Position numbers and translations under genes: made by a program. From positions 7,421,344 through 7,485,343 of the forward strand of contig NC_091217.1 in NCBI RefSeq assembly GCF_040958095.1: a stretch of 64,000 nt of DNA, written 5' to 3'. The notes beneath the pieces are model-generated. The model saw nothing but the letters and a program-made list of their open reading frames with translations, made no database searches and was not told the origin of the DNA. This document shows positions 4,598 through 59,372 of the stretch, in pieces (position 1 is the first letter of the stretch; each line of letters begins with the position of its first letter). The stretch comes from Procambarus clarkii (lineage: Eukaryota > Arthropoda > Malacostraca > Decapoda > Cambaridae).

Positions 4598-32912
<28,315 letters not shown>

Positions 32913-33017
32913 CCTGTTTGACACTGGTCGTGCGCCTGCCAAGACCCCGTCCTCCACCCCTGGCGGTGCCGCGTGCCCCTTCCGCAACACTCGTACCTCT
33001 TGTTCTTAGGTTGCTTA

Positions 33018-41200: not shown

Positions 41201-44200
41201 TGTCAGGTTGAATAATAACTTTAGTAAAGATGACAGCATACATAAGAGCTTTTTAAAATCTGAAACAGTTTTGTGAGACCAGATATAGAAAGGATTAAGC
41301 ATATCACAATTTATATTACGATATTGTAGTGACAATTTAGCAAGTGGTGATTAAACATAAAGTTGTTGTTTTTCAATGCTTTTGTAATGAATGTTGGCTT
41401 TGCAGATTCTATATACTTTCTCTAATTACGTTTTCTTTGATGACGAGTTCAGCATCATTCATCAGGCGTTTCTTTTAGTTTGTGTATGATAAAAATGTTT
41501 GTTGTTGCTGTGGCACGTGGACTTAAGCTCATAAGTCCATGTTTGAAGATAATTTATAGAACGGTGCAATGCTTTTGACCATGTCATGGTATAGTGGTCT
41601 AGAGCATTGCCTGGGAGTTCCTAGATAATAGGTTCAAATTCTCCACATGGCTCCTACTGATTTTCTCATTGATACATCACATGAATGTGATTTCTTTCTG
41701 CAAAAATCTTAAATTGAATGGTGCTATATTTTTAGTTTCTCTACACGCTTTTAAGAATTAACTAACCCTAACACCAGTTTTAATTACCATTATTTTAAAT
41801 AAGAATTTCATCTCTCGCCATTTCTTATTTCCCTTTTCTCGACTAATGTTTTAATACTTTGCGTTTACATTTTAAGTTAAACTTCCTTGGTGGCTACAGT
41901 CCTGTGTAAGTTTTTTTTTTTTTTTTTTTTTTAACGACAACTTTTTGTATTGCTACGCACATGCCCTTGATTATCACACTCTACATCCATTTGAGTAATA
42001 CAGTAGTGTTTTCTTTTCTCATCATTACTGTAGCACTGCATAATTCCTTCCATAACTTGTTTTGCCACATGTAGATGAGGATAATTAAATATACTGTAGT
42101 AACCTGTTTGAGTTTTTCTTTTGTGATCTATCTTATATTCTTCCTAAGTCGCATCTATGATCTTCTCGGTTAATACCGTATCTGAGAACCTGAGATCTTC
42201 TCAGGTTAACTGTTCAAAGTTGGTTCACAGGGAAAACGTGGTTTACAGGAGCTAAGGAAGGTGATTCTCCACCATCATTGTCCATCATATTCCTGTGGCT
42301 ATCCTTGGGTTTGCTTTTGTTTTCTGTTATCTGTCCATCCATTCTCCAGTGTTTTCAACATTTTTTTTTACTTTCTCAACATTTCTAACCCTTATCACTT
42401 TCCCTTTTTCTATTTCCTGCTTATCATTTTTATTAAGTTTCATGCCCTTCTAACTTGCTACTGGCTAATTCCATTTCCAAGCTTTTCTAGGATGTACACA
42501 GTATCTTTTTGATCATGTTGTGTTTATAATTGCTGTTGTATCTTTGCACCCAGTCAGTACATGACATGTCATTTAGTGTGACAGCCACCCACTAGTTATA
42601 GTGGGTCCAGCAAGAGTGAGACCAGAACACATCCTTTTAGGATGAATTGTATTACCTGATTGGACAGCTCTCAAAGTCAGTTCTGCTGTAATTGGATTTC
42701 ATCATAAGAGGGCAGTATTAATGTTGGCCTTTCAAATTCAAAATCTGATCTATAAGAAAAATACTAAACACAAAAGGCATTTTGTGGTAAAAACAAATTT
42801 TTGCTTTGATACTCTTTGATATATGATTTAATATGAGGAAAATGGGTAATGCATTATTATATTTTTAATGGGTATAGATTTGATTTCTTTGTCACCTCTG
42901 TAGTTTATGTAACCTACCATAGTTTTATTTTGAAGTTTACGTTTGAATATTGATGTGTAAATTAACGTCCACCACCAGGTTTGGGTTCTAAAGGACAAGT
43001 ATTGGAAGTGAGACCCAACAAGGCCCGAAACCAGTTGTTGTTGCCAGGCATTGCAGTGTATGCCTCGCCCGAAAATGTAGAGAAATATTCTACATTGATG
43101 ATTGAGGCCTCTAAAGAAGAAGACCAGCCATCATCACAATATGCTCGTCAGGTAAGAATTACTGCATCATGGAGAGTATGGTTTGTGATTGAATAATTGA
43201 ATAATACTTCATTTGGAAAACCTTGTCAAGCTCTTTGTTAATTTCAAGATCTAAATTGTGCTCAGCAATATTTCGTAACATTACCTGTTTATGAGCTGAA
43301 ATGACTCAGACCAGAAGTTGGTTATTTTTTATGGCATGCCTTTTAGTTTTAACTTGACATTTTTGCTATCATTATTGTGGTATGCAAATTAAGAAACCTT
43401 ACTTAATTTATTGAGTGAGATCTCTGAAAGATCTTGTTAATAATTTCTTTTCTAAATATTTATTATTCATGTAAATGACTTGTCTTTTACAAATTGGAAA
43501 TCTACAAAATAAGAACAAATATTATCTTAGCTATTAGGGTATGTTCTTTTCATTAAGTTTTAATAAAAAGATAATCTGTTTAGTTTTTCCAATTGATTTG
43601 AAATTTGATCTACATATTATCTACATATTTTACATTTTTATCATGTTTTAGCACATAAAACTTTCTTCATTTTCCAACATGTTTCACTCTGATGGGACTT
43701 TTAAAGCCTTCTAATTGATGCAAAATCAATCAAAATCATTATTATATTAATATTTAATTTATAAGTATGGGTAATGGCAACAGTAGTGTAATTGTGTTTT
43801 ATCTTTTCAAAGACGGCAGAACAGTTGTCATTGCAAGTCATCTCGGTTAGTATGAACTTGAAAAATCCATGGCAACTTGAACGATGGCATGTGCGAGTTG
43901 CCTTTCGTAAAGCTGGGATTTATTTACCAGATGATGCGCTTACACTCCCTTCCGAGCCCATCATTGGCCCAGATCTCAGCCTGCAGGGCAAGGAATTCGT
44001 GGTCAGAGTAAAGGTAACTAACTTTTCAATGCTTTGGTTATTGTGCCTACCTACAGATTTGTTAATTCTTTACGAGTATATTTCATTTATTTGGATTTAG
44101 AGTAATATAGTTAACAGTACACTGTCCTGCAATATACTAATTTTATTCTACACATGTTTATAAAGTCAGTTTGTGAACATTATATATACTATATTGGCTA

Positions 44201-44497
44201 TGTAATTGCGATTTACATTTGTTTTATATTTCCTTCTCGATGTCTGTGTGAATGTACAAAAGCACAATATAGAATATTGCCCATGTACACTCTATCCTAC
44301 AGATAAATAATAAAGAAGAAACACCAGTTCGGTGTCGAATTAATCACTATGCGACTAACCCACGCGATCGACTACCCTGGATATATCACCACTGGGAGCT
44401 TCCAGCTGAGCCTATCTTTCCAGAGGAGGCTCCTATTCTTCAAGAGCTCACAAAGAAATATCCTAAGCTCCGCACTCTGGAAGAAGAAGAACTCTAA
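38237..44497 (+). CDS. MRPL9: Mitochondrial ribosomal protein bL9m (MRPL9), 5 exons
   Basis: Exons are 38237-38371, 38959-39124, 42979-43151, 43813-44013 and 44303-44497, giving 870 nt and 289 aa (human about 267). The order of conserved blocks fits MRPL9: an N-terminal import region, RRLKARHFVYDLVE, MDSVDGLGSKGQVLEV, then the hallmark LLLPGIAVYASPEN, and LTLPSEPIIGPDL near the C-terminus. The product is a structural protein of the mitochondrial 39S subunit. Internal junctions are phase-matched, with donors GTAAGT, GTAAGA and GTAACT. The exon 1 donor (CGA/GTCAGT at 38371) is weak and was chosen because it restores QVR-TTFILKRR, which parallels the human protein. TTTACAG directly precedes the ATG at 38237, so that ATG may open an internal exon behind an unseen 5' UTR exon. 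An in-frame ATG at 38219 would add six residues. The poly(A) signal is at 45114. Confidence 0.9.
38540..38735 (-). mobile_element. LINE reverse-transcriptase C-terminal fragment in MRPL9 intron 1
   Basis: The minus strand encodes NGYKFDQLCFRRNVEKYWF followed by IVNKWNRLPSSII, matching the NGYKL...FxxRVVNxWNxLP block at the end of LINE ORF2. Confidence 0.6.
39190..41000. other. GC-richer block in MRPL9 intron 2, unclassified
   Basis: About 1.8 kb with higher GC and no family-like ORF, unlike the A/T-rich intron around it. Probably an inserted element, but I see no clear ends. Confidence 0.3.
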
Positions 44498-45113
44498 AAA
44501 TTGTTGTGTGTGCAAGTTCTTTCATAACCAGTTGGCAAAAAAAGTCTAAATGGAAGTAATGCTAAATATTCTTTTATTTTATTCTATTAGACATTTGGTT
44601 ACAGTATTAGCACAGTTTGTAAGTGTTTTGCAATAGTTGTGCAAAATATTTTCCCTATAGTCATCATTATATTTCAAATATTGAGTGGTAAACAGTCACT
44701 GACATTTTTCATTAGAGTTGAGAAGTGCATTGATAAATTGATCTTAAGCTTAGTAATGATCGACTGTCTGAACGGTGGGTTACATTCTTGTCTGTATTTG
44801 TCATCATAAGCTCAGCATGTTGACAGGTAAAAACTGTAAGTAATTATAATTCAGTTTTACATTATATATTACAGTAGTAGTTTTGACAAAGGCTAACTGG
44901 AATGCACTCGACTAAATATACAGACATGACGTTTTTGTAATATGTCATTGTAAAGGTAACTTTGCACACTTAACAGTGCACAACTGTAACAAAAAGAAAA
45001 ACAGCAGCTCTGTTCATAGAATAAAATCATATAAAAATTCTTCCTGAAGGAAATATGCTGTACCAATAGTGTTAATGTTTTAATTTACAGTATATGTAAT
45101 GTAAATACTTTTT

Positions 45114-45119
45114 AATAAA
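45114..45119 (+). terminator. MRPL9 poly(A) signal
   Basis: AATAAA lies about 620 nt after the MRPL9 stop codon in an A/T-rich tract. It is the most likely cleavage signal. A second AATAAA lies near 45020. Confidence 0.55.
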
Positions 45120-46399
45120 ATGTACTGGCAATACAGTATTTGATTTTAAGTTATATTTTGTGAATTATTAAACTTATTATAAATTCTCTTTCATTGGATG
45201 GTTTTGTCATCTTAATTTTATTAATCCTGCAGTGCAGTCGGTTCACAATCCTTTAATCTGATGACTCTGTTTTCCCTAGTAGGAAATAGCTATCAAAAAG
45301 TTAAGCAGCTGTTGTGGGTTGCATACTAAGAAAGGTCAGTTATTGGCCTAGGGTGGGGGTTCCCAACCTTTTCTATCCCCGGCACCCCTAGAAAATATTT
45401 AATATTTGTTTGCATCTCCTACAAAAGTAATATCACATATCAAGATGGTTAAAATTATCCCCTTTATTCATATATGGGATCATTTTTTGGTGAATTGCAA
45501 CACAGCTCTCCTCTTAGTAACACCCCCTGAAATGCCACTTTACAACTCCTGGGAGTATGAGTATGCCAGGTTGGGAACCCCGTGCCTAGATGGACCTCAA
45601 TACATCTAACAGATTTCCTATTCCAGGCAATGGGAAGCCCTTTTCATGTAAAAATAAAAAAGCCAAAATTAAAGGGAAGAGCTTTGCAGTACTTATATCT
45701 TTAGCAAATTAATTAAAGTTGCATACAGAGGCCTTGAAGTATGTAATCGTCAAAGAGAGGACTAATCCAGTATATCTATATACTGTCTTATATTGCCCGT
45801 CACAGAATATACAATTGTTACTAGAATCATTTAGGATGATAATATGAGAGCAGACAGAAAAAAAAGAGTAGGATTCACTGAGGAGTTTATCTGAAGAATT
45901 GACCCGTAAGAACAGTAGGAAAGCAAACTTTCTGATCGCTTTGAAAATCAGAACATTCTATTAGAAGATAAGTGAGTAGAACAGTGCAACTTTGACAATA
46001 TGGTGCAGATTTATGTTTCAGTAAATGCCCATTAATTAATCTTGTGTGGTTTATATGTATCCCCACTTCCTATTTCAGTTATAGGAGCAAAGGCAGAGAT
46101 AGGTCACATTTGATGGTATATAATTTATTTGCATTAGCTAATCATCAACCTTTCCAACAGTTGCTAATTGTTCAACAAATGACAGTAGAAATCTGGGAAA
46201 AGAATGGGTTTCTGCATGATGGGACAGGTATGTATGACTTCTTTAGCAGTGGTGTCTGTTAGGTCATTGGAAGCATCACCAGTATGTCTCATGCCTGCTA
46301 AAGATGAGAAACAACCAAAGCTGAATTTCCATCACAATGAGATAAGAACAGTAAAGACTTGATTGTCATGAGCACACTTGCAGAGTCGACTACAATAAC

Positions 46400-47330
46400 A
46401 TGATTGTTGGTTCATGAAAACTAACTTGGAACATAAAATATTGCAGAAAGTTTTGAAAGTAAGAATATTGGTTTTTGGAGAAAGGCAACAAGGAGGGGTT
46501 ATATCAGAAAAGATAAAAGAAGGGCTAATTCCATTAGCAGATTTCAACCTGCCTATAAAAATAGCTATACAGGGTAGTGTGAATTTTGAGGGAAATGTCA
46601 AAAGGGACAGAGAGGAGTACATGCTTTCACCTTGAGGGTTAGTGCTCTTCAAAATTTCATGAATGGAACTTTCCACAGAGATAAGGTAAGCACAACATGA
46701 GGAAACATTACTGCAAACAGTCAAAGACTTATTGAGACTATTGCATGCTGTTCTTTGCAACAAAAGATGCAAACTTTGATGGGGATAGAAAACTGGCCAG
46801 TTTGTCAAAAGCTCCCCCATTTTTTCTGATAACTTTTGCAACTGGATTTATGAACTGCCTCGGCATTTATAGCTTTGGAGGGTAGACAATTCTATGGGTT
46901 TAGAACTCTATAGATGGGCAAAAAACCCTTATGAAGAGACTAAAAAGCTCTTCATTTACATTTCTAGGATGCCAAATAATAAGGGGTGGCATAATAGAAG
47001 TATGTAAATGGATGAAAGGGGAACTAAATAAAATTTCAGATTTGAACTAAATAAAACTCGAAACAATGGTTATAAATTGGATTAGTTTAGATTTAAGAAT
47101 GACCTGCTTAACAGGCTGATTTGGTAACGGTTGTTAATTTACAGAACAAATTACTGTACAGTATATGACAAATAATAGATATAAGATCGCTGGCTTGTTT
47201 CAAGAGTGGGTTAGGCATATATTTGAATGTATTCGATGGATACAAATAAGAGCTGCCATATATGGACCAATAGAACCATCTTTAAGTTGGCAGAAAACTA
47301 TACACACTAATTAGCCTAACTTAATTTAAT
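46400..47330 (+). mobile_element. Decayed LINE ORF2 remnants
   Basis: PLADFNLPIKIA near 46520 recalls the endonuclease motif GDFNLP. Near 47070, RNNGYKLD, then FRFKNDLLNRL, and later DIRSLACFKSGL recall the C-terminal end of ORF2. Many stops and frame changes lie between. The part between the two motifs is too decayed to name. Confidence 0.45.
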
Positions 47331-47535
47331 TCTTGTTTAGTTTTAGTGTTTGTCTCATTAAACCTATCAATAATATAAACAAATTATATTTTATACCTGA
47401 AATGCTTTACGTTTTAGTGGCTTTATTAAATATTTATTTAATGTAACACCTATTTAATCACTGTACAGTACTGCGTTATCTATTTTTTTAATAAAAACTA
47501 TTATTATTATTATTATTATTATTATAATAAAGGTG

Positions 47536-47604
47536 CAGATTGATTGATTGATTGATGAAGATTAAGCCACGCAAGATGTGGCACGGGCATGAATAGCCCG
47601 GAAA
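47536..47604 (-). repeat. Double-hairpin element, GCCACC type (copy 3, minus)
   Basis: (TTGA)n, GATGAAGATTAAGCCACGCA, GTGGCACGGGCATGAATAGC. A reverse copy of 26240-26328. Confidence 0.7.
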
Positions 47605-47931
47605 TAAATGTGCATACGAAGAGTCACATTAACAAAGGTACTGGAGCTGGTGTACTAATGTGTGGTGTAGGGGTGAGGGTGCTGGACAAGGGACAAGGGT
47701 GGGGCAGGTAATTGTCGCGTCAGGGCAATAACGCAACAATTGCGTCACCCTGACACGACAACATTCACAAACGAATAAAAAAAAATCACGCCCTTATCAC
47801 AAAGTTCTCAACTGAAAAAAAACTCCATAATAAAGTAACAAATCATTCAATAAATTAAATATCAGAATCACAACTACAATGAATAAGATTTAGGAGATTT
47901 AAGAGAGGAAAAATAAATGTTGATATAATGT

Positions 47932-50900
47932 ATGTTTACATTCCTGAGGGCGATGTTGTCTAGCGGCGGCGATCAATCTCGCTCCATCTTCCTTTCCTGC
48001 AGGCTCGTGCTCAACCTCCTCCTCGGGGTGCTGCTCCTCTGCTACCTCGCCCGCTCTGGCTACCACCATGAAGAGTGCCTCCACGCCCTCAAGGTGTATA
48101 GTGTGAGCGTGATCGCCCTCGAGGTCGTGTGGAGGTGGGTGGCGGCTGCCGTCGGCGGGTACAGCGGCTGGACGGCCAGAGGCAAGACTAAGAGGTCCTC
48201 TAGGGTGAGTGGTAGCCTGGTGAAGCTGTATCAGCACAGGGGGTGGTTGTGAGTGAAGCGGTACCAGTACGGGTGGTGGTTGTGAGTGAAGCTGTATCAG
48301 CACGGGTGGTGGTTGTGAGTGAAGCTGTACCGGCACTGGTGGTGGTTGTGTGTGAAGCTGTACCGGCACGGGTGGTGGTTGTGAGTGAAGCTGTATCAGC
48401 ACGGGTGGTGGTTGTGAGTGAAGCTGTACCGGCACTGGTGGTGGTTGTGTGTGAAGCTGTACCAGCACGGGTGGTGGTTGTGTGTGAAGCTGTAACAGCA
48501 CGGGTGGTGGTTGTGAGTGAAGCTGTACCGGCATGGGTGGTGGTTGTGAGTGAAGCTGTGCCAGTACGGGTGGTGGTTGTGTGTGAAGCTGTACCAGTAT
48601 GGGTGGTGGTTGTGAGTGAAGCTGTACCAGTACGGGTAGTGGTTGTGAGTGAAGCTGTACCGGTACGGGTGGTGGTTGTGAGTGAAGCTGTGCCGGCACG
48701 GGTGGTGGTTGTGTGTGGAGCTGTACCTGCACAGGGGGGGGGGGGGGGGGGGAGGTGAGTGAAGCTGTACCAGCATGGGTGGTGGTTGTGAGTGAAGCTG
48801 TACTGTCATGGGGCATGGTAGTGCATGAAGCTGTACCAGCATTGACCATGGTAGTGTGAAGCTCTACCAGGTGGTGGTTGTGCGTGAAGATGTACCAGCA
48901 TGGGGCGTAATTGTGTGTGAAGCTGTGTCCACATGGGGCATAGTTGTGTGTGAAGCTGTACCAACACTGGGGATATGAGATGTAGTCACCTAGTTGTGCT
49001 TTCAGGGGGTTGAGCTTTGGCTCTTTGGTCCTGCCTTTCAACCGTCAATCAACTGGTATTCAGATTCTTGAGCTTACTGGGCTCTATCAAATCTAGATGT
49101 GAGATGCTGCTGGTGCCCGAGTTGGTATTTTAGTGTGTGGAACATCTTGCTGTTCTTATGTTTACCCCATGTGTTGTCCTCTCACCATCTAGTTGTGTAG
49201 AGCAGTCAAACTCTTATGTTTATTTCCCTGTGACTCCTGATAAATATATTTATGCACAATTCTTCCCACCAAGCACCCAAAACTTTTAAAGTACAGTATG
49301 TACTGCAGAGTAATTTAGTGTAGGGCAACAGATGCTTTGTTGAAAGATTGAACACAGTGAGTTTTTTTACCTCTAAAAATTAATTTATATGTTCTTGCAT
49401 ATATATTTAAGTACAGTAGTTGATGCCTGATTTTCTTGTTTTGGCATCTAAGGTAAATTTCAGGAGCTCTTGTTTTTTATATGAGATAGAAATAAAAAAG
49501 TCTTGGATGTTGTCTTAAATGTAAATACAATTTCAGATTGTAGACGTTTTTCTGATTGTCATCTGGAGCATCTGCAGTGTTGTCATCACACACATTGTCA
49601 CTGTTTTGTATGGTGCATATCTGATTGAGTGAGTACAGGACAAGTTACTCTTTTTGTTAGTTTAATTCTCAAGGGGAAGCAAGGTGACTGATGCTCTGGA
49701 TGGGCTGACAAATTTTCATGAATGAATATTGTAATATATATGTGTGTGGTTTATCAATTCCAGTATTGCAGGATGGGAAAAATACTGTATATATTGTTAG
49801 GAAATGTTATAATAAAATGGGTATTCCTTATTGCAATATGATAACAGTGCAGTATCTCAACCTGTTTCTTGATTGGAGAGTTTATAAATACCCCGTACAG
49901 TAGTGTAATCAGTGTATATAGGTATTCTGGTACATCCCAAATTGTTGAAACTAGAAAAGTGTGAAGAATTAAAAGAGGTAAAATTCAGTATGTATTAAAT
50001 AATTTACTGGTGCAGTACAACTGAAAATTGATATCCATAATATGCACAGGAGTGTTAGGAAATATAATGAATTCCTATTGTGGAGGACAGGAAGTCTCTA
50101 GCGACTGGCTAGTAACGCTCCTCAACAGGCACCTCACTGTCGCTCGTCTCTCCCCTTAGCCACTCCCGGGATATGCCGATCTCTTCCAATGCTACTCCAA
50201 TAGCAGACAACACACTCTGCTTCTGATCGGTGGCAACTTACTTAATTGTCTGGTGGGACTAAGTCAGGAGAGCTTAGGCTGCCCAAGGTAAACTGCCATC
50301 CTCAGTACCAGTGCTGCCCCACGTCACCTCTGTGGACACAAACACGTCATTAGTTATTGGACAGTATTGGTGAAACCAAGAAGTAACACTTATTCACTGG
50401 GGACGGTGGCATAGTGCTCTGTAGCACAACCTAGATGGCGCTGATCTTGAGTCGCCACCTCACTAGAGGTCATCCACAATGACCACTTGTTAGCCAAGGC
50501 AGGAATCTTGAGCCATTTGCAGATATCAGGCTGTCACCACCAGATGGCATCGTCCAAATGACATCCGATACTGTGGGGGTTAGAGAGCAGATTCACAGGT
50601 GGCGCTGACGTTGCTACTCCATACTCCGACGATGTTGTCGGGTTCGCAACACCAACAAATATTATACATACAGTACAGTACTGGACAGGAAGGCTTTTTC
50701 AACAGTTGATTACTTCAAAAAGTTTTTAACATGTCCCTAAAAAAACTGTTGTAGTGATTTTGTTAATTTTTAGGTTACGAGCAACAATAGCAGTGTCCTG
50801 ACTGCTCTTGGGCCAAATCTGGGACCAAGCTGCAAGGATAAAATGAATTCTGAAAACTTTTAAAAGTAATGAACAAAAATTTTAAGCTTCAAATTTATGG

Positions 50901-53900
50901 ACTGTTTCTGTTTATAGTTTCCTTATCAAACATAACATTTATAACTGTGAAGCTATACAGTATACCTTGAATAAAGAACAAAGTTTAACTGAAGAACTGA
51001 TTTACAGTATTATTTGGTGTTGAAATCAGTACAAGTTGTTTGGAAATTATTTAGCTTCATCATTACAAAAGGTTGTCATTAAATTTGTGAATTAGATTTC
51101 TGTAGAAATTATCATGAACTTAATAAAATATTATATTGGCAAGTTTTTCCTTAAGGTACAGTATACACAAATGGAAATTGATAAAATGTTGAAAAAAGTA
51201 GTCAGATTTAATAAAAATGTGTGAATTTTTCAAGTACTGTATTACTGTAACTTTAAACACTGTATGAGCATTTCAAGAATTTATATTATTTCTAACCTGC
51301 TTAATGCTTAGGTTGAATAAACACCTATAATTCTGTATTGTGACAAAGCCTGATAATGTGCGAGCTTTGCACATTTGGATCAGTAATATCATTACATAAC
51401 CACACACCTGAAGTTGAAGAAATGACGATGTTTTGGTCCATCCTGGACCGTTAAAGAAGAAACGACGAAGAAGAAATGTATGTTTCTTCATCTTTTGATG
51501 TGTGTGGTTTGGTCATCATATCATCAGCAACGTTATTGTGACTCATTGTCTGCATCAATACTTGAAGTTACTGATGCTACATAGGCCAGTACTGCATGCA
51601 AAGCATCAATAGCGTCAATACTAGATGTTGGTACTGGTGTGATTAGAACATGATAATCTGATCCAGTATTAATGTTCGAGTTTAACTGGCTTGTGTCCCT
51701 TGACCTTTATTACATGTCTGCTTCCTAGCTTGTACCTGTCTAATAGCATCTACCACAATAAATACTTTTTGCTACATTCTTATCTCTAGTATTAACAGTT
51801 GGCAACGACTTTTATAGACTGACCAACATGCAGAATTCTCCCATAGATGTGTTAAGTCAATTACTGTTAAGTCCTAAATGTTATAGTAATTAGATGGTTA
51901 CAAAGTTTCAGTGCTTGGAAGCAGATTTGGTATGCAACATTTTATCTGTAAATACGTTTTTGTTCATGCGAGTCATTCTTAAGGTGAACATAATAAGCCA
52001 TATTACCCATATCTTAAACAAGCTTATTGATCTTGATGGGAATATATTTTGCCAAATTAATGGTATTTTTTTTTTTTTTCCAGGAATTTTGAGGAGACTT
52101 TCACCTTTAGTGTACTTGTAGCATCATTAGCCTTCATAAGGCCACTCATTGCTCTCGGACCATCTGCCCTAATAATCATCCTTGAGAGGTAAACTGTGAA
52201 GCTTTAGACAGTATTTTGTCTTTTTTATTTTTTACTAGACAACTATAGTGAGACCTAACAAAAAGAGATGCCATTGTTACAGAATAACAAGGAAAGATGA
52301 AGTGAAAGCTGTTTAATGTCAATAATATATTTTGTGTGTGAAAAAGTTTGATGGCATCCAAATAGTTTTATTAGAACATTTGTTGTGGTAATCAGGCTGT
52401 ATATAATCCTATTTTCAAGCTAAAGTGATTACATCAGGATGCAATGTATGGATGCAGCTATCACGGGCTGCTTCCTGGGGGTGGAGGCCTGGTCTAGGAC
52501 CGGGCCGCGGGGACACTAAAAGCCCCGAAATCAATTCAAGATAACCTCAAGATAAGATGGTATGAAGGGTCCCTATGCTTGGGAATGCACTCAACCATAA
52601 ACCATCACCAACAGCCATATGCTTGTGGAACCCTGGAGACATGCCATATAGTGACATTTAAGCATGTAAGGTACAAATAGAGCCTATGTGTGTTTCTAAT
52701 TATCATTAAAAGATGGTTAAGAGGCTAGAATTTGGCAAGTTAATGCTTAAGATGAGGCTCTAAGCAATGTTCTATACTTTAAATATATATATCATTCACA
52801 GTATGTATATATATTAAGATTCATTAACAAATGGATTAAGATAGTCATACATTTATGTAAGAAAATGCTAATTTATTTGAATATCTGAGACCATTTTCAA
52901 AGATGAATCTCATATTGGGAAGATGTAATAGAAAATTGTCTCCTGGGTTACAGGACCACCTGCCTCTGGATGTGTGGGCTTTCTTACTTGAATATAGGTA
53001 TTATGTTTGGTGGATACATATGATAAAGTGTAATGTTATGGTTTGGTTATATTTTAATAGGCAACAATTTCTTGTAGCACATGTAGAGATGGAAACAAAG
53101 GTAGATTTTAAGATGACTTTTCTCTCGCTAGCAAAATCATCATCTTAAATTTTGTAATTCGTTTCAAAGCTTACTCTTTTTTTTTCTATTCTAAGTGTTA
53201 ATTTTTCAGATTGAGCTGGGACGAAGAGGTGGATGTTGAGTCCTTTGCCGTGTTGCTTGGTGCGTGGTTGGGAGCCATACCTATTCCTCTTGACTGGGAC
53301 ACTCCTTGGCAGGTAATTCTGGTTACAATACTCTTGTAAGGAATCATAAATACAATGAACTATGGACTATGAATATGAATTTATCTGGTAAGAAAATTTA
53401 AGGAGTGGACAGAACACTGGACGAGTGATCCTGTGGTCCCAGGTTCGATCCCAGGTGCCAGCGAGAAACAATGGGCAGAGTTTCTTTCACCCTGATGCCC
53501 CTGTTACCTAGCAGTAAATAGGTACCTGGGAGTTAGTCAGCTGTCACGGGCTGCTTCCTGGGAGTGGAGGCCTGGTTGAGGACCGGGCCACAGGGACACC
53601 AAAGTCCCGAAATCATCTCAAGATAACTCAAGATAACCTCAAGTACCTCATTTAACTTAGCTCTTTTAATATATGAAAAGTAGTTGATTTTGTTGAAAAG
53701 CCATTGAGTGTAATTGAAACAAAATTCTATATTGGCTTTCATTTTAAGTTTGGTGCATTTTTATTTATTGAGAGTGTGATAAATTAGCACTAATGTTAGC
53801 ACTACGATAAGTTAGTAGTATCGTAAAAAAAATTAGATTTAGAGACTAGGGTACGAGGAAAGATGGGGATAATGGTGAAATCTATGTACAGGTTCTGCTG

Positions 53901-54948
53901 GTAGATATCCTTCATATGACTGGTTGAAATTCAGATTTTGCTGAGTGAGATGTTTACATAAAGTATTAGAAAATGGAGGGTCTGAATGGTATCCTTTAAT
54001 ATAGTTTTGGAGTGAAAGTAATTGAGAAAGTAAGTGTGCATAATTTAAACAAAATTATATTTTTGATTTTTGGCTTTGACAAAATTTACTGTTAAAAAAA
54101 ATCCAGAAAATGTGGTGATTTTTGCCAAATTAAATTAAAAAATCTAAATTATATGGAAATCCCAGTTATTTGTGAATCTGAATTGGGTCCAAAAATATGA
54201 TGCAAATTCGGAGGGTCCATTACAAGAATTAAACCACCTTTATTTTTGTTCTCACTCTTCCTCATAGCCAGCTAGATTGAGTTGCAAATCTCTCCTTGTT
54301 AAGAAGTGTGTCGAGCTATTGTTTATATATATCCTTCGAGTCCATCGACACATTTTTAAGCCAGCAAGCATTCACTTATTATGTATTTATAGTATTACCG
54401 ACAACATTCTCCTTCACTCTCACGTGCACTCATGCTCATAGTGTTTCCATCTCTGTTTCTTCCTTCATTTTGTTTTATGCACCCAATTAATTTTGTTAAT
54501 TATATTACATTTTATTTTACAGTATAAAGATAATTTGAGTTTTCCTTAACTTAAATTATTTGTTTAAAAATAGATACTGTAAAAAATTTCCATAAAATGC
54601 TTAACAAAACATTACGGAGAATGTTTTAGATGGGTTGTGTCTGGTAATACATCCTTATATGAGATGTCTGGGAGCATATACAATATATCAGTTGAGCAGG
54701 AACTTGACTGGGAAGTATTTCTACATCTTTCCTTTGATAAAATATGGCACTCAACTCAGAAGAGCTCTTACACCATTTTAGGTGTAATTTCCTAAATATA
54801 ATTTTGGCTTCAAAACTTTCCTTGTCTACAGGTGTGGCCATTAACGTGCAGTATTGGGGCTGTTCTTGGAGAAGTTGGAGCTTCTGTTTACATCCTTGCA
54901 AAACAGAGGAAGGTGGGAGATTTAAGCAGGAAGAACAAGGCCACATAG
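47932..54948 (+). CDS. PIGF: PIGF, GPI-anchor biosynthesis class F membrane protein, 5 exons
   Basis: Exons are 47932-48204, 49537-49628, 52084-52188, 53210-53312 and 54832-54948, giving 690 nt and 229 aa (human 219). All junctions are GT-AG and phase-matched. PIGF is the multi-span ER partner of PIGO and PIGG, which add ethanolamine phosphate to GPI mannoses. Identification rests on LYGAYLIENFEETFTF (human LYGAPLIELALETFLF), GAWLGAIPIPLDWDTPWQ and VWPLTCSIGAVLG, the near-invariant C-terminal blocks. The N-terminal half is diverged but hydrophobic. The start at 47932 is the first in-frame ATG; the next is at 47953. The exon 1 donor (AGG/GTGAGT) directly abuts a 33-bp minisatellite made of donor-like units. 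Intron 3 (from 52189) and intron 4 (from 53313) each carry a piece of the same SINE family. TRIAP1 starts 167 bp after the stop codon. Confidence 0.92.
48206..48985. repeat. 33-bp minisatellite at the PIGF exon 1 donor
   Basis: About 22 units of GTGAGTGAAGCTGTACCRGC plus ACGGGTGGTGGTT, more diverged after 48760 and broken by a G-run at 48737-48753. 33 bp is 11 codons, so long Pro- or Val-rich ORFs run through it on both strands. They are artefacts. Confidence 0.92.
48990..49110 (-). mobile_element. LINE 3'-region fragment (antisense)
   Basis: CACCTAGTTGTGCTTTCAGG, GGTTGAGCTTTGGCTCTTTG and CAACCGTCAATCAACTGGTA match 22028-22105 and extend further. Confidence 0.5.
50081..50655. mobile_element. 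Possible solo LTR (fossil), TG...CA bounded
   Basis: A GC-richer block of about 575 bp in PIGF intron 2 begins TGTGGAGGACAG and ends GGGTTCGCAACA. No target duplication is evident and the family is unknown. Treated as a possible old LTR fossil only. Confidence 0.25.
51394..51521. mobile_element. Foldback element B, old diverged copy
   Basis: ACCACACACCTGAAGTTGAA, GACGATGTTTTGGTCCATCC and the inverted end GATGTGTGTGGTTTGGTC. The two arms no longer match fully. Confidence 0.65.
52447..52555 (+). mobile_element. SINE family 3, 3' part (PIGF intron 3)
   Basis: ATCACGGGCTGCTTCCTGGG, GGAGGCCTGGTCTAGGACCG and CCCCGAAATCAATTCAAGAT match the 3' half of 53401-53643. Confidence 0.7.
53401..53643 (+). 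mobile_element. tRNA-derived SINE (family 3), near full length (PIGF intron 4)
   Basis: A degenerate tRNA-like head with GGTTCGATCCC, body GCCCCTGTTACCTAGCAGTA, hairpin GGCCTGGTTGAGGACCGGGCC region and an end of repeated TCAAGATAAC. Confidence 0.75.
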
Positions 54949-54986
54949 AGTTAACACAATATTGATATCCTTGTATTTTAATTTAT

Positions 54987-54992
54987 ATTAAA
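54987..54992 (+). terminator. Possible variant poly(A) signal ATTAAA after PIGF
   Basis: ATTAAA lies 39 nt past the PIGF stop and is the only common poly(A) hexamer in the gaps between PIGF, TRIAP1, SPTSSA and RPP38. If used, it separates PIGF mRNA from the genes downstream. Confidence 0.3.
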
Positions 54993-55115
54993 ATGGCAGA
55001 GAAGTGATCTATAATTAATTTTAAAACTAATGCTTTTTTTGCCTGTTGGCGTTGTGTGTGTCATCTCTGTCGTGTCAGAACTCTAAGTTGGTCTTGTATT
55101 TTTCAAGTTAGCTTA

Positions 55116-55337
55116 ATGAATAGTGTGAGCAAGGATTGTCAGGAACTTAAGTCTATGTATGATTCTTGCTTCAATCAGTGGTATAGTGAAAAGTTCTTGA
55201 ATGGACAAACAGATGATACAACCTGCGAGCCCGTATACAAGCAGTACCAGCACTGCGTAAAAGCAGCACTTAAGAAACTAAAGATCGATATTCCAAAAAT
55301 TGAAGAAACTCCATTAAGTGACAAGCCTAAAGAGTAA
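55116..55337 (+). CDS. TRIAP1: TRIAP1-like twin-CX9C mitochondrial protein
   Basis: A single uninterrupted 73-aa ORF. It has the twin CX9C motif (Cys8/Cys18 and Cys37/Cys47) of the TRIAP1/Mdm35 family, which forms a helical hairpin held by two disulfides in the mitochondrial intermembrane space. Family members chaperone PRELI-type lipid-transfer proteins that carry phosphatidic acid to the inner membrane, and in vertebrates they restrain apoptosis. The N-terminus MNSV, the block MYDSCFNQWYSEKFL and the block YKQYQHCVKAALK match the family closely, as does the length (human 76 aa). The ATG at 55116 is fixed by that match. A splice-acceptor-like tract ending GTGTCAG at 55078 suggests a 5' UTR exon further upstream, possibly shared with PIGF. 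No AATAAA lies before the next gene. Confidence 0.93.
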   Translation: MNSVSKDCQELKSMYDSCFNQWYSEKFLNGQTDDTTCEPVYKQYQHCVKAALKKLKIDIPKIEETPLSDKPKE

Positions 55338-55519
55338 TTTAATACTTTATATACAGTCTCTATATTCTGTATATGTGTTTATATATACTGTATAGTGTCT
55401 ACTTTTATATCCTTATGTGATGGCTTATCTATTTTTCTAAATAGGGTTAACATTTCATAAACTGAGTGAACATAAAAATAGTAGTTTTTTGTATATTAGT
55501 AGACAACTTAGAAATCAAA

Positions 55520-55732
55520 ATGTTTCAATCTGTTCGAAAGTTTGCATCACACATGTACCGTCAGTATGAGCTCAACACAGCAATATATATGCTCGAACCC
55601 AAGGAGAAGCTGGCCATGAATGCCTTCTTCTTGTCAATTCTTGGTCTCATTACTTACTCTTCATATGTGTACTTGCCTCACTACACATCCACGATGCTTG
55701 CCTTCTTTGGAATTATTGACATTGATAATTGA
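55520..55732 (+). CDS. SPTSSA: Serine palmitoyltransferase small subunit (SPTSSA/B type)
   Basis: An uninterrupted 70-aa ORF, about the length of the human subunits (71-76 aa). Family members bind the SPTLC1-SPTLC2 dimer in the ER membrane, raise its activity and help set acyl-CoA chain-length choice in the first step of sphingolipid synthesis. The block YELNTAIYMLEPKEKLAMNA matches the human YLLVTALYMLEPWERTVFNS region. It is followed by one membrane span (about residues 35-51, FFLSILGLITYSSYVYL) and a short tail ending FFGIIDIDN, similar to human HYFEIVQ. The ATG at 55520 follows ATCAAA and is the first in this frame. A vs B type cannot be decided by eye, so the symbol is nominal. It begins 182 bp after TRIAP1 and ends 172 bp before RPP38, with no canonical poly(A) signal on either side. 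Confidence 0.9.
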   Translation: MFQSVRKFASHMYRQYELNTAIYMLEPKEKLAMNAFFLSILGLITYSSYVYLPHYTSTMLAFFGIIDIDN

Positions 55733-55904
55733 GCTTTTGAATGTAAGCATTGGTAGGATAAATTTCTTTATTTTAATGTCTAAATTATCATCTGCCTGAA
55801 ATTAATTCTACTTGGTTTAAGTGTTAGAAGTTAAAACTATTATCTGTACTTATTTTGTATTTTGCTTTTATTTCATATATGAACATTTTGCTCATTTGCA
55901 TATC

Positions 55905-57149
55905 ATGGCAACTCAGGGAAAACAAGTCAAAACCCTGTCTAAAGCTGAACAACAGAAAACAATCAAGGGTGCCCAGAAGCCCAAGAGAAATGTTGTAAAA
56001 AACACGCTAGAAAGCCCATTTGCCCTAGACTGGCCTGTTATAAGCACAGAACATAAAGGAGAAATTAAAGTACTTCTACAAAAGACTTGCTCTGGATTAA
56101 AGACACTCGGATGCAAGCCTCCTTGGAATGAAGTGAGAAAATTTAAGGGTGCAGATAGAACAGCTTTTCTGAAAGAATATCGGAAAAAGTTTCTAGACAG
56201 TTTAGATTCTGCTGTTGTAAATCAGAACAGAGAGAATGAAGAATTGTTGTCTCATTTGATTTTTGGCTATAATTCTGTAATGAGAGCTCTAGAGAAAGAC
56301 TGTTTAGCTGGGGTTCTGGTTAAGAAGAATGTTGAGCCCCCATTCCTAGTGAAAGCATTTCTTCCTGGTTGTGCAAATAAGTGTGTTCCTCTAATTCCAT
56401 TAGATGACCTTGATAGCTTGCTAAAAGACGAAGAGACCCTTGCATTGCCTCATGCATGCATGGTGCTTGGACTAAAACCAACTGTCAAGGATGACAATAA
56501 TAGATTTTATGCATTGTTTACCAAGATGTGCGAAGCTGTTGACATGGAAGAGGGTGTGGATGAAGGTTTTGAGGAGGTGGAGTGTAGCACAGCAGTTACT
56601 GTTACAGAAGATAATAAGGAAAACAAAGCTTGTACATCCAACTATTCCTTAACACACGAGCAAGTTCAGTCATATCATTTGAAACGATCTTGTAAAAATA
56701 AACGAGCATTCATTCCAGGGGAAAGAAAAGAAAAGAATGTTGATGCTATGGAGTGTGGGGCAGGTTTTATCAGCCTTGAGCCTACTAAAGTGGATGCCTT
56801 TGTTCAAGAAGAGAAAATGCAGCTTGATAGCAAACCTGCTAAATTATCTAAAAAGAAGTCAAAACAATTGCAGAAAAAAGGAGCTGCTTCTAGTTCCCTC
56901 ACATCTATGGACTTGAATAATATATTTATTGATGTTGGAGGAGATATGGATCAGTCAAATCAGAAAGATGAGAAACAAGAAAGTAGCAGTTTAGATGCAA
57001 GAAATGTTTATAATATGGAAAATGGCCAAGGTAAGAAGAGAAGAAAAACAAAGCCACACAATTTTCCATACGTGTCTGCCAAAACAAAGAGAGTTAAAAA
57101 CAACCCAAACAGAAAAAACAATAAGAGTGGTAAAAAGAAAAAAGAATGA
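55905..57149 (+). CDS. RPP38: RPP38, ribonuclease P/MRP protein subunit p38
   Basis: An uninterrupted 414-aa ORF, longer than human RPP38 (283 aa). RPP38 is an L7Ae-fold protein that binds the kink-turn of RNase P and RNase MRP RNA in the nucleolus. The core lies at about residues 30-220. It begins with NTLESPFALDWPVIS and continues through an L7Ae-like helix (NEELLSHLIFGYNSVMRALE) and LVKAFLPGCANKCVPLIPLDD to the HACMVLGLKP segment. The remaining 190 or so residues are low-complexity and strongly lysine-rich (KKKSKQLQKK, KKRRKTKPHNF, a lysine-rich end), consistent with nucleolar localisation and RNA contact. The ATG at 55905 is chosen because upstream codons in the frame do not look family-like. 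A possible poly(A) signal is at 58632, which would place a MITE (57865-58112) inside the 3' UTR. Confidence 0.88.
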   Translation: MATQGKQVKTLSKAEQQKTIKGAQKPKRNVVKNTLESPFALDWPVISTEHKGEIKVLLQKTCSGLKTLGCKPPWNEVRKFKGADRTAFLKEYRKKFLDSLDSAVVNQNRENEELLSHLIFGYNSVMRALEKDCLAGVLVKKNVEPPFLVKAFLPGCANKCVPLIPLDDLDSLLKDEETLALPHACMVLGLKPTVKDDNNRFYALFTKMCEAVDMEEGVDEGFEEVECSTAVTVTEDNKENKACTSNYSLTHEQVQSYHLKRSCKNKRAFIPGERKEKNVDAMECGAGFISLEPTKVDAFVQEEKMQLDSKPAKLSKKKSKQLQKKGAASSSLTSMDLNNIFIDVGGDMDQSNQKDEKQESSSLDARNVYNMENGQGKKRRKTKPHNFPYVSAKTKRVKNNPNRKNNKSGKKKKE

Positions 57150-57864
57150 AAATACTGTAAATGCAAATTCTCTCTTTAAGCTGGGAATTGAAAAGTAGAC
57201 ATTAATATACTGTTATATGTATTTTTAGTTTCTTTATTGTGAGGGTTATTCAGTTTTTCGTTTATGCTGCATTTTCCTTTGCACTGTTCCTCCGAAAAGA
57301 TAGATGATGAGGTTATATTAACATGGATTCATAAGCTAGCAGCCATAAGGAGTGGTAGGGACATGTGCAACATTTGATAAATGTTACTTGTTGGATAGTA
57401 GCCAAATGTAATGGATATTGCCAGAAATATAAATAATCAGATTACTGTAATACAATTAAGAAAGTCAAAAGTAATATCAAATTTGCTGCTATCCTTTGTC
57501 ATTGTGTGGGCAAGAACCTCTTATTATTTAGCAAAAAGCATAAAGTAGCTGAAATCAGGCTTATAAAAATTACATTTATTTTTAAATACAGTACTGTATA
57601 TAGACACTCCACAAGATTTTTAAGAGCTATTTTGACCAGCTTTGTAGGAACCTAGTACGAGTTAAAACTTTCAGCATGTTTTGATACATAAGTACTGTAT
57701 ATATATATGCCGGTTTCATACACTTTAGAGCAGTGTGTTATTACAAAAAATATTTGTGGTGCATTTAATGTAAACCATAGAAGCTTTTGCAATGCTTAAG
57801 TACTGTTTCTAAATGTTGGTATAGCTTACCTCTTAAGGTGAAGCAGGTGTCTTCTTAAAAACCA

Positions 57865-58112
57865 GGGGGCCAGATTCACGAAGCAGTTATGAACCTGTAC
57901 ATCTTTTCTCAATCTTTGGCGGTTTTGTTTACAATTATTAAACAGTTAATAACTCCGAAGCACCAGGAGGCTGTTTATAACAATAACAACAGTTGATTGG
58001 GAAGTTTTCATGCTTGTAAACAGTTTAATAAATGTAACCGAAGCCGTCAAAGATTGAGGAAAGATGTATACGTTCCTAAATACATGCGTAACTGCTTCGT
58101 GAATCTTGCCCC
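57865..58112. mobile_element. MITE family A, copy 3, downstream of RPP38
   Basis: GGGGGCCAGATTCACGAAGC and GCTTCGTGAATCTTGCCCC are its inverted ends. The interior is almost identical to 33018-33266. Probably in the RPP38 3' UTR. Confidence 0.82.
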
Positions 58113-58631
58113 AGATCTTCTCATTGGTCTTAGGGTTGCTTGAACAAGGATGAGTAGTATAGTTAAAAAAAAAGTAAGAAATCACAAATGAATATAATTG
58201 AAGTTGACAACTGAATAATTACTTACAAGGATTGTGTGTTAATATAAAGAGGTACTGAGGAGTAAATGCCAATGTAGAAATTTGTCATCTTTGGGATCAA
58301 ATGTATTAATTTGCCATATGGAAGATTTAATGTGTACTAAATATATAGTTAACTTGGGGAAATACAAGAAAACTGTTGACAGTCTATCATTCCAATGTTA
58401 ATACAAAGAAAAGGGTGCCACTTACTAGTTAGTGCCTAGTAATTATGTTAACTAGTGGCAGAACCATATGGCTGAATTCTGCATCCTGTTAAGCCATTGG
58501 TACTAAGTAATCATATTTAGCATTTAGTTTCATATTAGTAGAGTTTGTTTTGCTACAAACATTAGATTAGAATTGTACATTAGTTAAAATTTTGGGATTA
58601 GTTTATTTACTTTTTGATTGTAAATTTACAA

Positions 58632-58637
58632 AATAAA
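58632..58637 (+). terminator. Candidate distal poly(A) signal for RPP38
   Basis: An AATAAA on the plus strand about 1.5 kb past the RPP38 stop. It would give a long 3' UTR containing a MITE. Confidence 0.3.
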
Positions 58638-58639
58638 GT

Positions 58640-58810
58640 CATTGATATCTGTAACCCTCTATCATCTCTGAGCAATTACTTCCGCCATCCCATGTGTGAA
58701 ACAGGGCAAAGATGCCTCTCCCATTCCATGTATGAAATAGGGTAGGAATGCTTTTACCGCCCCATGTGTGAAATGGGGAAAAAATGCCCCCTCCCACCCC
58801 ATATATGAAT
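58640..58810. repeat. Short degenerate tandem repeat (CCCATGTGTGAAA)
   Basis: CCATCCCATGTGTGAAACAG, CCATTCCATGTATGAAATAG, CCGCCCCATGTGTGAAATGG and CCCACCCCATATATGAATTA follow one another about every 39-45 bp. Confidence 0.7.
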
Positions 58811-58984
58811 TAAGAGGATACATAGAATTAGCATGATTTTTATTTTGTGATAGTTCCTTTTCTGTGCAACAAAAAAAAAGTAATTGGTGGCAAAGTTTTT
58901 TGCTTTTCTGGTTTTATTATAATTGTATTTAAGATACAGTACAAAGTGTGTCCAAACTATGAGACCAGACACTTTGTGGTGGGG

Positions 58985-59150
58985 ATGGGGTTTACCACGA
59001 TCAATTTAAGGACTGATTTTTCTCCCAGAATGCATCCCACGATTGCCTAACTCCCAGGTATGCCTAATTATTGTTAGGCGAACAGAGGCATCAGGTGAAA
59101 TGAAACATTCCCATGCTAACTCGTAGGAATCGAACCCGGGAGCTTTCAGT
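58985..59150 (-). mobile_element. tRNA-derived SINE (family 1), diverged
   Basis: CCCAGAATGCATCCCACGAT, CTAACTCCCAGGTATGCCTA and GGAATCGAACCCGGGAGC, the last being a reversed B-box region. Confidence 0.55.
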
Positions 59151-59162
59151 TGTGACTTGTCT

Positions 59163-59250
59163 GCGCTTAAACCAGCTTGTATATATAGATTTACTTATAT
59201 ATTGGCGCTTAAACCAGCTTGTATATATAGATTTACTTATATATTGGCGT
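59163..59250. repeat. 44-bp tandem duplication
   Basis: GCGCTTAAACCAGCTTGTAT followed by ATATAGATTTACTTATATAT occurs twice, nearly identical. Confidence 0.9.
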
Positions 59251-59263
59251 TAAATAGTTTTTA

Positions 59264-59372
59264 GTTCATTATTATGCACCCCATACCCATTTTGTGGGCG
59301 GTAGTGGAAAGGGTTAGAGACATAATGGGCTCAGGGTCTCAACCTCACAATTCATTTAGCTAAGCAAGTTAC
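59264..59372 (+). repeat. Dispersed repeat, copy 2 (GTGGGCGGT family)
   Basis: ATGCACCCCATACCCATTTT, GTGGGCGGTAGTGGAAAGGG and ATTTAGCTAAGCAAGTTACA match 853-962. Confidence 0.6.

Follow-up and report, generated by a model that had tools for sequence, protein, structure and literature searches.

Four small, intact housekeeping genes of Procambarus clarkii, PIGF, TRIAP1, SPTSSA and RPP38, lie head to tail on the plus strand and are tentatively regarded here as co-transcribed, at least in part, a reading favoured over the nearly as likely one of separate promoters. The DNA analysed, referred to below as the window, is a 64,000-nt stretch of contig NC_091217.1 (positions 7,421,344-7,485,343; assembly of 4.03 Gb in 2308 contigs), and all positions are those of the window. 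Transcription would start near PIGF exon 1, pass through TRIAP1, SPTSSA and RPP38, and end at the AATAAA at 58632 or at the alternative candidate at 58027, the earliest canonical AATAAA 3' of the RPP38 stop codon. Some mature mRNAs would hold at least two ORFs, like those of polycistronic loci in flies. The genes have functions in GPI anchor synthesis (PIGF), mitochondrial lipid transfer (TRIAP1), sphingolipid synthesis (SPTSSA) and RNase P (RPP38). The features of the cluster are as follows:

47932-48204, plus strand: PIGF coding exon 1 (spliced protein against PIG-F, E = 1e-29)
49537-49628, plus strand: PIGF exon 2 (splice model)
52084-52188, plus strand: PIGF exon 3 (splice model)
53210-53312, plus strand: PIGF exon 4 (splice model)
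54832-54948, plus strand: PIGF exon 5, including the stop codon at 54946-54948 (splice model)
54949-55115, plus strand: gap 1, 167 bp, with ATTAAA at 54987 and an acceptor-like site before 55079
55116-55337, plus strand: TRIAP1 copy without introns, 73 aa (UPF0203, E = 2.8e-23; human TRIAP1 6i3v, E = 3e-16)
55338-55519, plus strand: gap 2, 182 bp, with 0 CpG and an acceptor-like site before 55445
55520-55732, plus strand: SPTSSA, uninterrupted, 70 aa (SPT_ssu-like, E = 3.5e-19; 7k0i, E = 5.1e-11)
55733-55904, plus strand: gap 3, 172 bp, with 0 CpG and AG-free over the final 74 bp
55905-57149, plus strand: RPP38, uninterrupted, 414 aa (RNase_P_pop3, E = 2.7e-4; human RNase P p38 6ahr_C, E = 5.9e-4)
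58632-58637, plus strand: AATAAA, candidate poly(A) signal of the unit (motif scan)

The coordinates and order of four same-strand genes given in a preliminary description of this DNA proved correct, and homology backs each name, that of RPP38 weakly. RPP38 appears to be the least secure of the four assignments, its RNase_P_pop3 match of 21.4 bits falling just under the family cut-off of 22. The five PIGF exons join into one 229-aa frame with all borders GT-AG, and TRIAP1, SPTSSA and RPP38, described earlier as uninterrupted, each consist of one open frame. The genome search returned one match each for SPTSSA and RPP38, and no relatives of TRIAP1, SPTSSA or RPP38 were found in viral contigs. 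PIGF may truly start at 47953, its second in-frame ATG. Just 5' of the PIGF ATG are three ATGs that open short ORFs (47879-47963, plus strand), one of them overlapping the PIGF start. Intron 1 of PIGF carries, immediately 3' of the donor, a 33-bp minisatellite of 22.5 copies (48220-48967). A repeat with 'cgggctgcttcctggg' was seen by eye in two copies, in intron 3 (52455-52560) and intron 4 (53536-53640), and the repeat from intron 4 had no match in phage records.

The gaps of 167, 182 and 172 bp reported previously were recovered exactly from the coding coordinates. The nearest other same-strand gene identified ends about 3.4 kb before PIGF. It probably encodes mitochondrial ribosomal protein L9 (MRPL9; exons within 42966-44497, plus strand), as suggested by a Ribosomal_L9_N match at 42966-43193 (E = 1.6e-12); its last exon, extending to 44497, has no Pfam match and was placed by eye. 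Three successive same-strand gaps below 200 bp are not expected by chance in a genome of 4.03 Gb, for which 25,000-30,000 genes were assumed. All three lie inside the stop-to-start range of -34 to 319 nt given in the consulted sections of the FlyBase survey for Drosophila loci with solely polycistronic transcripts; these sections also count 159 dicistronic pairs, seven tricistronic and two tetracistronic sets (PMC4528330). The fly loci and the crayfish cluster share adjacent same-strand ORFs, small proteins, short distances and cases of four ORFs, but the shared transcript in flies is backed by cDNA and RNA-Seq (PMC4528330), whereas the cluster is known from genomic sequence alone. Since the FlyBase sets reach four ORFs, even a true polycistron here would be an arrangement of known sort.

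Three such gaps in succession in a genome of this size, with lengths like those in flies, thus speak for co-transcription. Against co-transcription count the absence from the gaps of a common motif (the longest word present in all three has 6 letters, P = 0.96) and of stable RNA structure (z of -1.3, -1.2 and 0.0), and the lack of a further copy of the joined region. The genome search, as far as it saw, detected no second copy of the region that begins with PIGF exon 5 and ends where RPP38 starts, and hence no reverse-transcribed trace that would reveal a shared mRNA. Open-licence PMC literature, the set searched, contained nothing on this cluster.

Another line of evidence is provided by CpG content. 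A two-state model of the CpG observed/expected ratio (o/e), run on the window alone and on 164 kb, called the following segments around the cluster:

47201-48600, unstranded: CpG-undepleted segment, o/e 0.77, covering the PIGF 5' flank, exon 1 and the start of intron 1 (164-kb model; 47101-48600 on the window alone)
48601-59350, unstranded: domain poor in CpG, o/e 0.32, that begins in PIGF intron 1 and ends past RPP38 (164-kb model; 48601-59100 on the window alone)

The former is the probable promoter region of PIGF and the single undepleted segment between MRPL9 and PIGF, MRPL9 being covered by a further low-CpG domain (41801-47200, 164-kb model). The CpG-poor domain ends 0.5-0.7 kb 3' of the AATAAA at 58632. 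Neither run called an undepleted segment within the three gaps, while the same model resolved a 150-bp one within the probable MRPL9. CpG is lower in the 10.5 kb that start at 48.5 kb than anywhere else in the window, and this stretch ranks second lowest among 307 sliding windows over 164 kb. Methylated CpG is lost by decay over time. Methylation in the marbled crayfish is enriched in housekeeping gene bodies, and most repeats are unmethylated, as stated in the portions of the methylome study consulted (PMC6172769). The domain at 48601-59350 has the CpG depletion that a methylated gene body would be expected to show.

A single CpG-poor domain spanning the cluster, with no undepleted segment called in the gaps, therefore favours co-transcription. 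Its weight is reduced because the PIGF segment hardly exceeds the undepleted background (o/e 0.77 against 0.65-0.72 in the longer high segments), because low-CpG domains make up 54% of the 164 kb, and because the domain is sensitive to parameters. It is stable for 25-, 50- and 100-bp bins with 201-bp smoothing and repeat masking; 501-bp smoothing or omission of repeat masking fragments it, leaving TRIAP1 and gap 2 partly outside.

At the individual starts (-170 to +150 of the ATG), the likelihood ratios of the low against the high state are 0.66 for TRIAP1, 2.1 for SPTSSA, 14.6 for RPP38 and 0.04 for PIGF, and the RPP38 start contains 1 CpG against 9.2 expected. Start regions in the first coding exon of Ras-family genes served as a control: 20 were taken from 136 matches, drawn from the 28 whose profile match begins at position 1 or 2, the other eight comprising three with stops and five in excess of the set size of 20 regions. 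Eighteen of the 20, those whose in-frame ATG lies no more than 200 nt away, were counted; the two uncounted ones are L057, without an in-frame ATG (o/e 0.46), and L062, 201 nt from its ATG (o/e 0.56). The o/e was at most 0.51 in nine of the 18 counted controls, at most 0.35 in five and at most 0.11 in one, and the same formula gives 0.52 for TRIAP1, 0.36 for SPTSSA and 0.11 for RPP38. The TRIAP1 and SPTSSA starts are ordinary in CpG, which weakens the case for co-transcription, and RPP38 alone stands out. The CpG mark at single starts argues against an own promoter for RPP38 only and is, judging by the control, unreliable. Some control starts may lie in second exons, a suspicion raised by the other TRIAP1 gene of the genome, on contig C6, which seems to be such a case: an acceptor-like site is located just 5' of its ATG, and its CpG count is 0 against 10.3 expected.

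The closest competitor of partial co-transcription, credible to almost the same degree, is that the cluster consists of four separate genes, each transcribed from a short promoter in the gap before it and ending at a weak poly(A) site of its own. The compactness would then be a by-product of retroposition, or of genes being shuffled locally next to the active promoter of a housekeeping gene. In CpG, both the TRIAP1 and the SPTSSA start fall inside the range of the 18 control starts. Gap 1 has the ATTAAA at 54987, 129 bp 5' of the TRIAP1 ATG, and its 3' half rises to a GC content of 0.40 with 2 CpG. A TATA-like element (55380) is present in gap 2 together with the weaker poly(A) variants CATAAA (55456 and 55471) and AAAATA (55475), and gap 3 contains CCAAT-like (55749) and Inr-like (55892) elements and GATAAA (55757). 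However, a 3' UTR, a promoter and a 5' UTR would have to be squeezed into 167-182 bp three times over, gaps 2 and 3 lack CpG (2.5 and 2.7 expected), the RPP38 start is CpG-poor, and gap 1 contains none of the scanned core-promoter motifs, a set that did not include DPE.

The preliminary description had used the absence of AATAAA from all gaps, with ATTAAA solely at 54987, as evidence for a shared transcript. Both counts are right, but the argument carries no weight and was rejected: 0.60 AATAAA are expected in the 521 bp from the gaps' own composition, and 55% of simulated gap sets also had none in any of the three (P = 0.55). The density of AATAAA on the plus strand of the window is about one per kb. 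Of the polycistronic reading itself, the fly-like gap sizes and the single CpG-poor domain stand, the poly(A) argument falls away, and promoters of TRIAP1 and SPTSSA are still allowed by the controls.

It is improbable that one pre-mRNA is cut to monocistronic mRNAs by spliced-leader trans-splicing, or that a common 5' exon is joined to the ORFs by alternative cis-splicing. Spliced leaders are used by Parhyale, also a malacostracan, according to the excerpts of PMC5111886 consulted. Spliced-leader operons of nematodes and tunicates resemble the cluster in that genes on one strand are closely spaced, at about 100 bp in Caenorhabditis elegans in the available text of PMC7986045, but differ from it in that the one leader type sought is absent from P. 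clarkii and gap 3 lacks a good acceptor. Acceptor-like sites precede TRIAP1 (before 55079, 99.0th percentile) and SPTSSA (before 55445, 98.6th), each 3' of the last upstream ATG in its gap. The percentiles are ranks among the AGs of the window under untrained splice-site weights, a scale that misses real sites, as PIGF's own exon-2 acceptor reaches only the 41st. Since 18 AGs were scored in gaps 1 and 2, two high values are mildly unexpected at most, and in gap 3, where the last 74 bp contain no AG, the best acceptor 5' of the ATG ranks at the 85.6th percentile.

The amphipod-type leader pattern CCTTTACCAN{2,7}TWACTGGTA, modelled on the four leaders of Parhyale given in PMC5111886, matched nowhere in the 4.03 Gb, where a reversed control pattern matched once; the search covered this one leader type, and unrelated leaders, or leaders with a different donor behind them, would escape it. 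Rfam matched nothing in the window but a tRNA-Thr (CGT) at 22322-22392 on the minus strand, and no spliced-leader RNA was detected there. The earlier suggestion of trans-splicing is accordingly disfavoured by these two limited tests, the genome-wide leader search and the lack of a good acceptor in gap 3, as far as a leader for all three downstream ORFs is concerned; a leader of other sequence on some ORFs is compatible with the data.

Under the preferred reading of partial co-transcription, translation of the four ORFs from one mRNA would be uneven. The TRIAP1 start context is weak, with T at -3, the SPTSSA ATG stands in CAAAATG, and the RPP38 context is strong. Drosophila sloth1/sloth2 is a bicistronic gene with a weak first start and a strong CAAAATG at the second, as given in the sections consulted of PMC9681215; small conserved ORFs and the weak-then-strong order are shared by TRIAP1 and SPTSSA, and this asymmetry argues for co-transcription. 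In contrast to the sloth ORFs, likely paralogues 5 nt apart (PMC9681215), TRIAP1 and SPTSSA are unrelated and 182 bp apart, with seven ATGs between their starts. Inspection by eye of 3.1 kb surrounding the P. clarkii genome's match to Brawnin (sloth2) showed no obvious SMIM4 partner. Between successive starts of the cluster there are 6, 7 and 10 ATGs, of which 3, 1 and 3, respectively, have a purine at -3, and these numbers argue against simple scanning. Leaky scanning could carry ribosomes past the TRIAP1 start to that of SPTSSA, and translation of RPP38 would depend on reinitiation, on internal initiation or on a start site of its own.

That the genome contains two TRIAP1 genes is the firmest of the new findings. 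The copy on C6 encodes 80 aa; its first coding exon spans 50 codons and is followed, after a GT-AG intron of 8,100 bp, by a second exon. The second exon was chosen by eye among eight residue-pattern matches, tblastn having given nothing convincing, and its assignment is good, although not proven. Identity to the human TRIAP1 stretch is 53% for the C6 copy and 44% for the window copy, and the two copies are 46% identical to each other. As the window copy has no intron and its paralogue on C6 has one, retroposition is its likely origin, and it would have been inserted into the trailer of PIGF or behind it; loss of the intron after an ordinary duplication is a conceivable alternative. With the copies this divergent, a poly(A) tract and a target-site duplication would not be expected to have persisted.

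It is unlikely that these unrelated housekeeping genes are expressed from an obligate tetracistronic mRNA, built up in a giant genome as small ORFs were retroposed into the trailer of PIGF. If one transcript did carry the four ORFs, it would represent a large animal polycistron where genome space is no constraint and an example of how retroposed ORFs acquire expression. Expression counts for TRIAP1, SPTSSA and RPP38 would here derive from one promoter, a warning for the use of expression data. Were the genes separate, their close packing would have no special consequence.

Elsewhere in the window, a Claudin/PMP22-like exon is located at 32658-33005 on the minus strand (Claudin_2, E = 3.3e-6, below the cut-off), and a 32-bp tandem repeat of 32 copies with 97% matches occupies 30775-31797.
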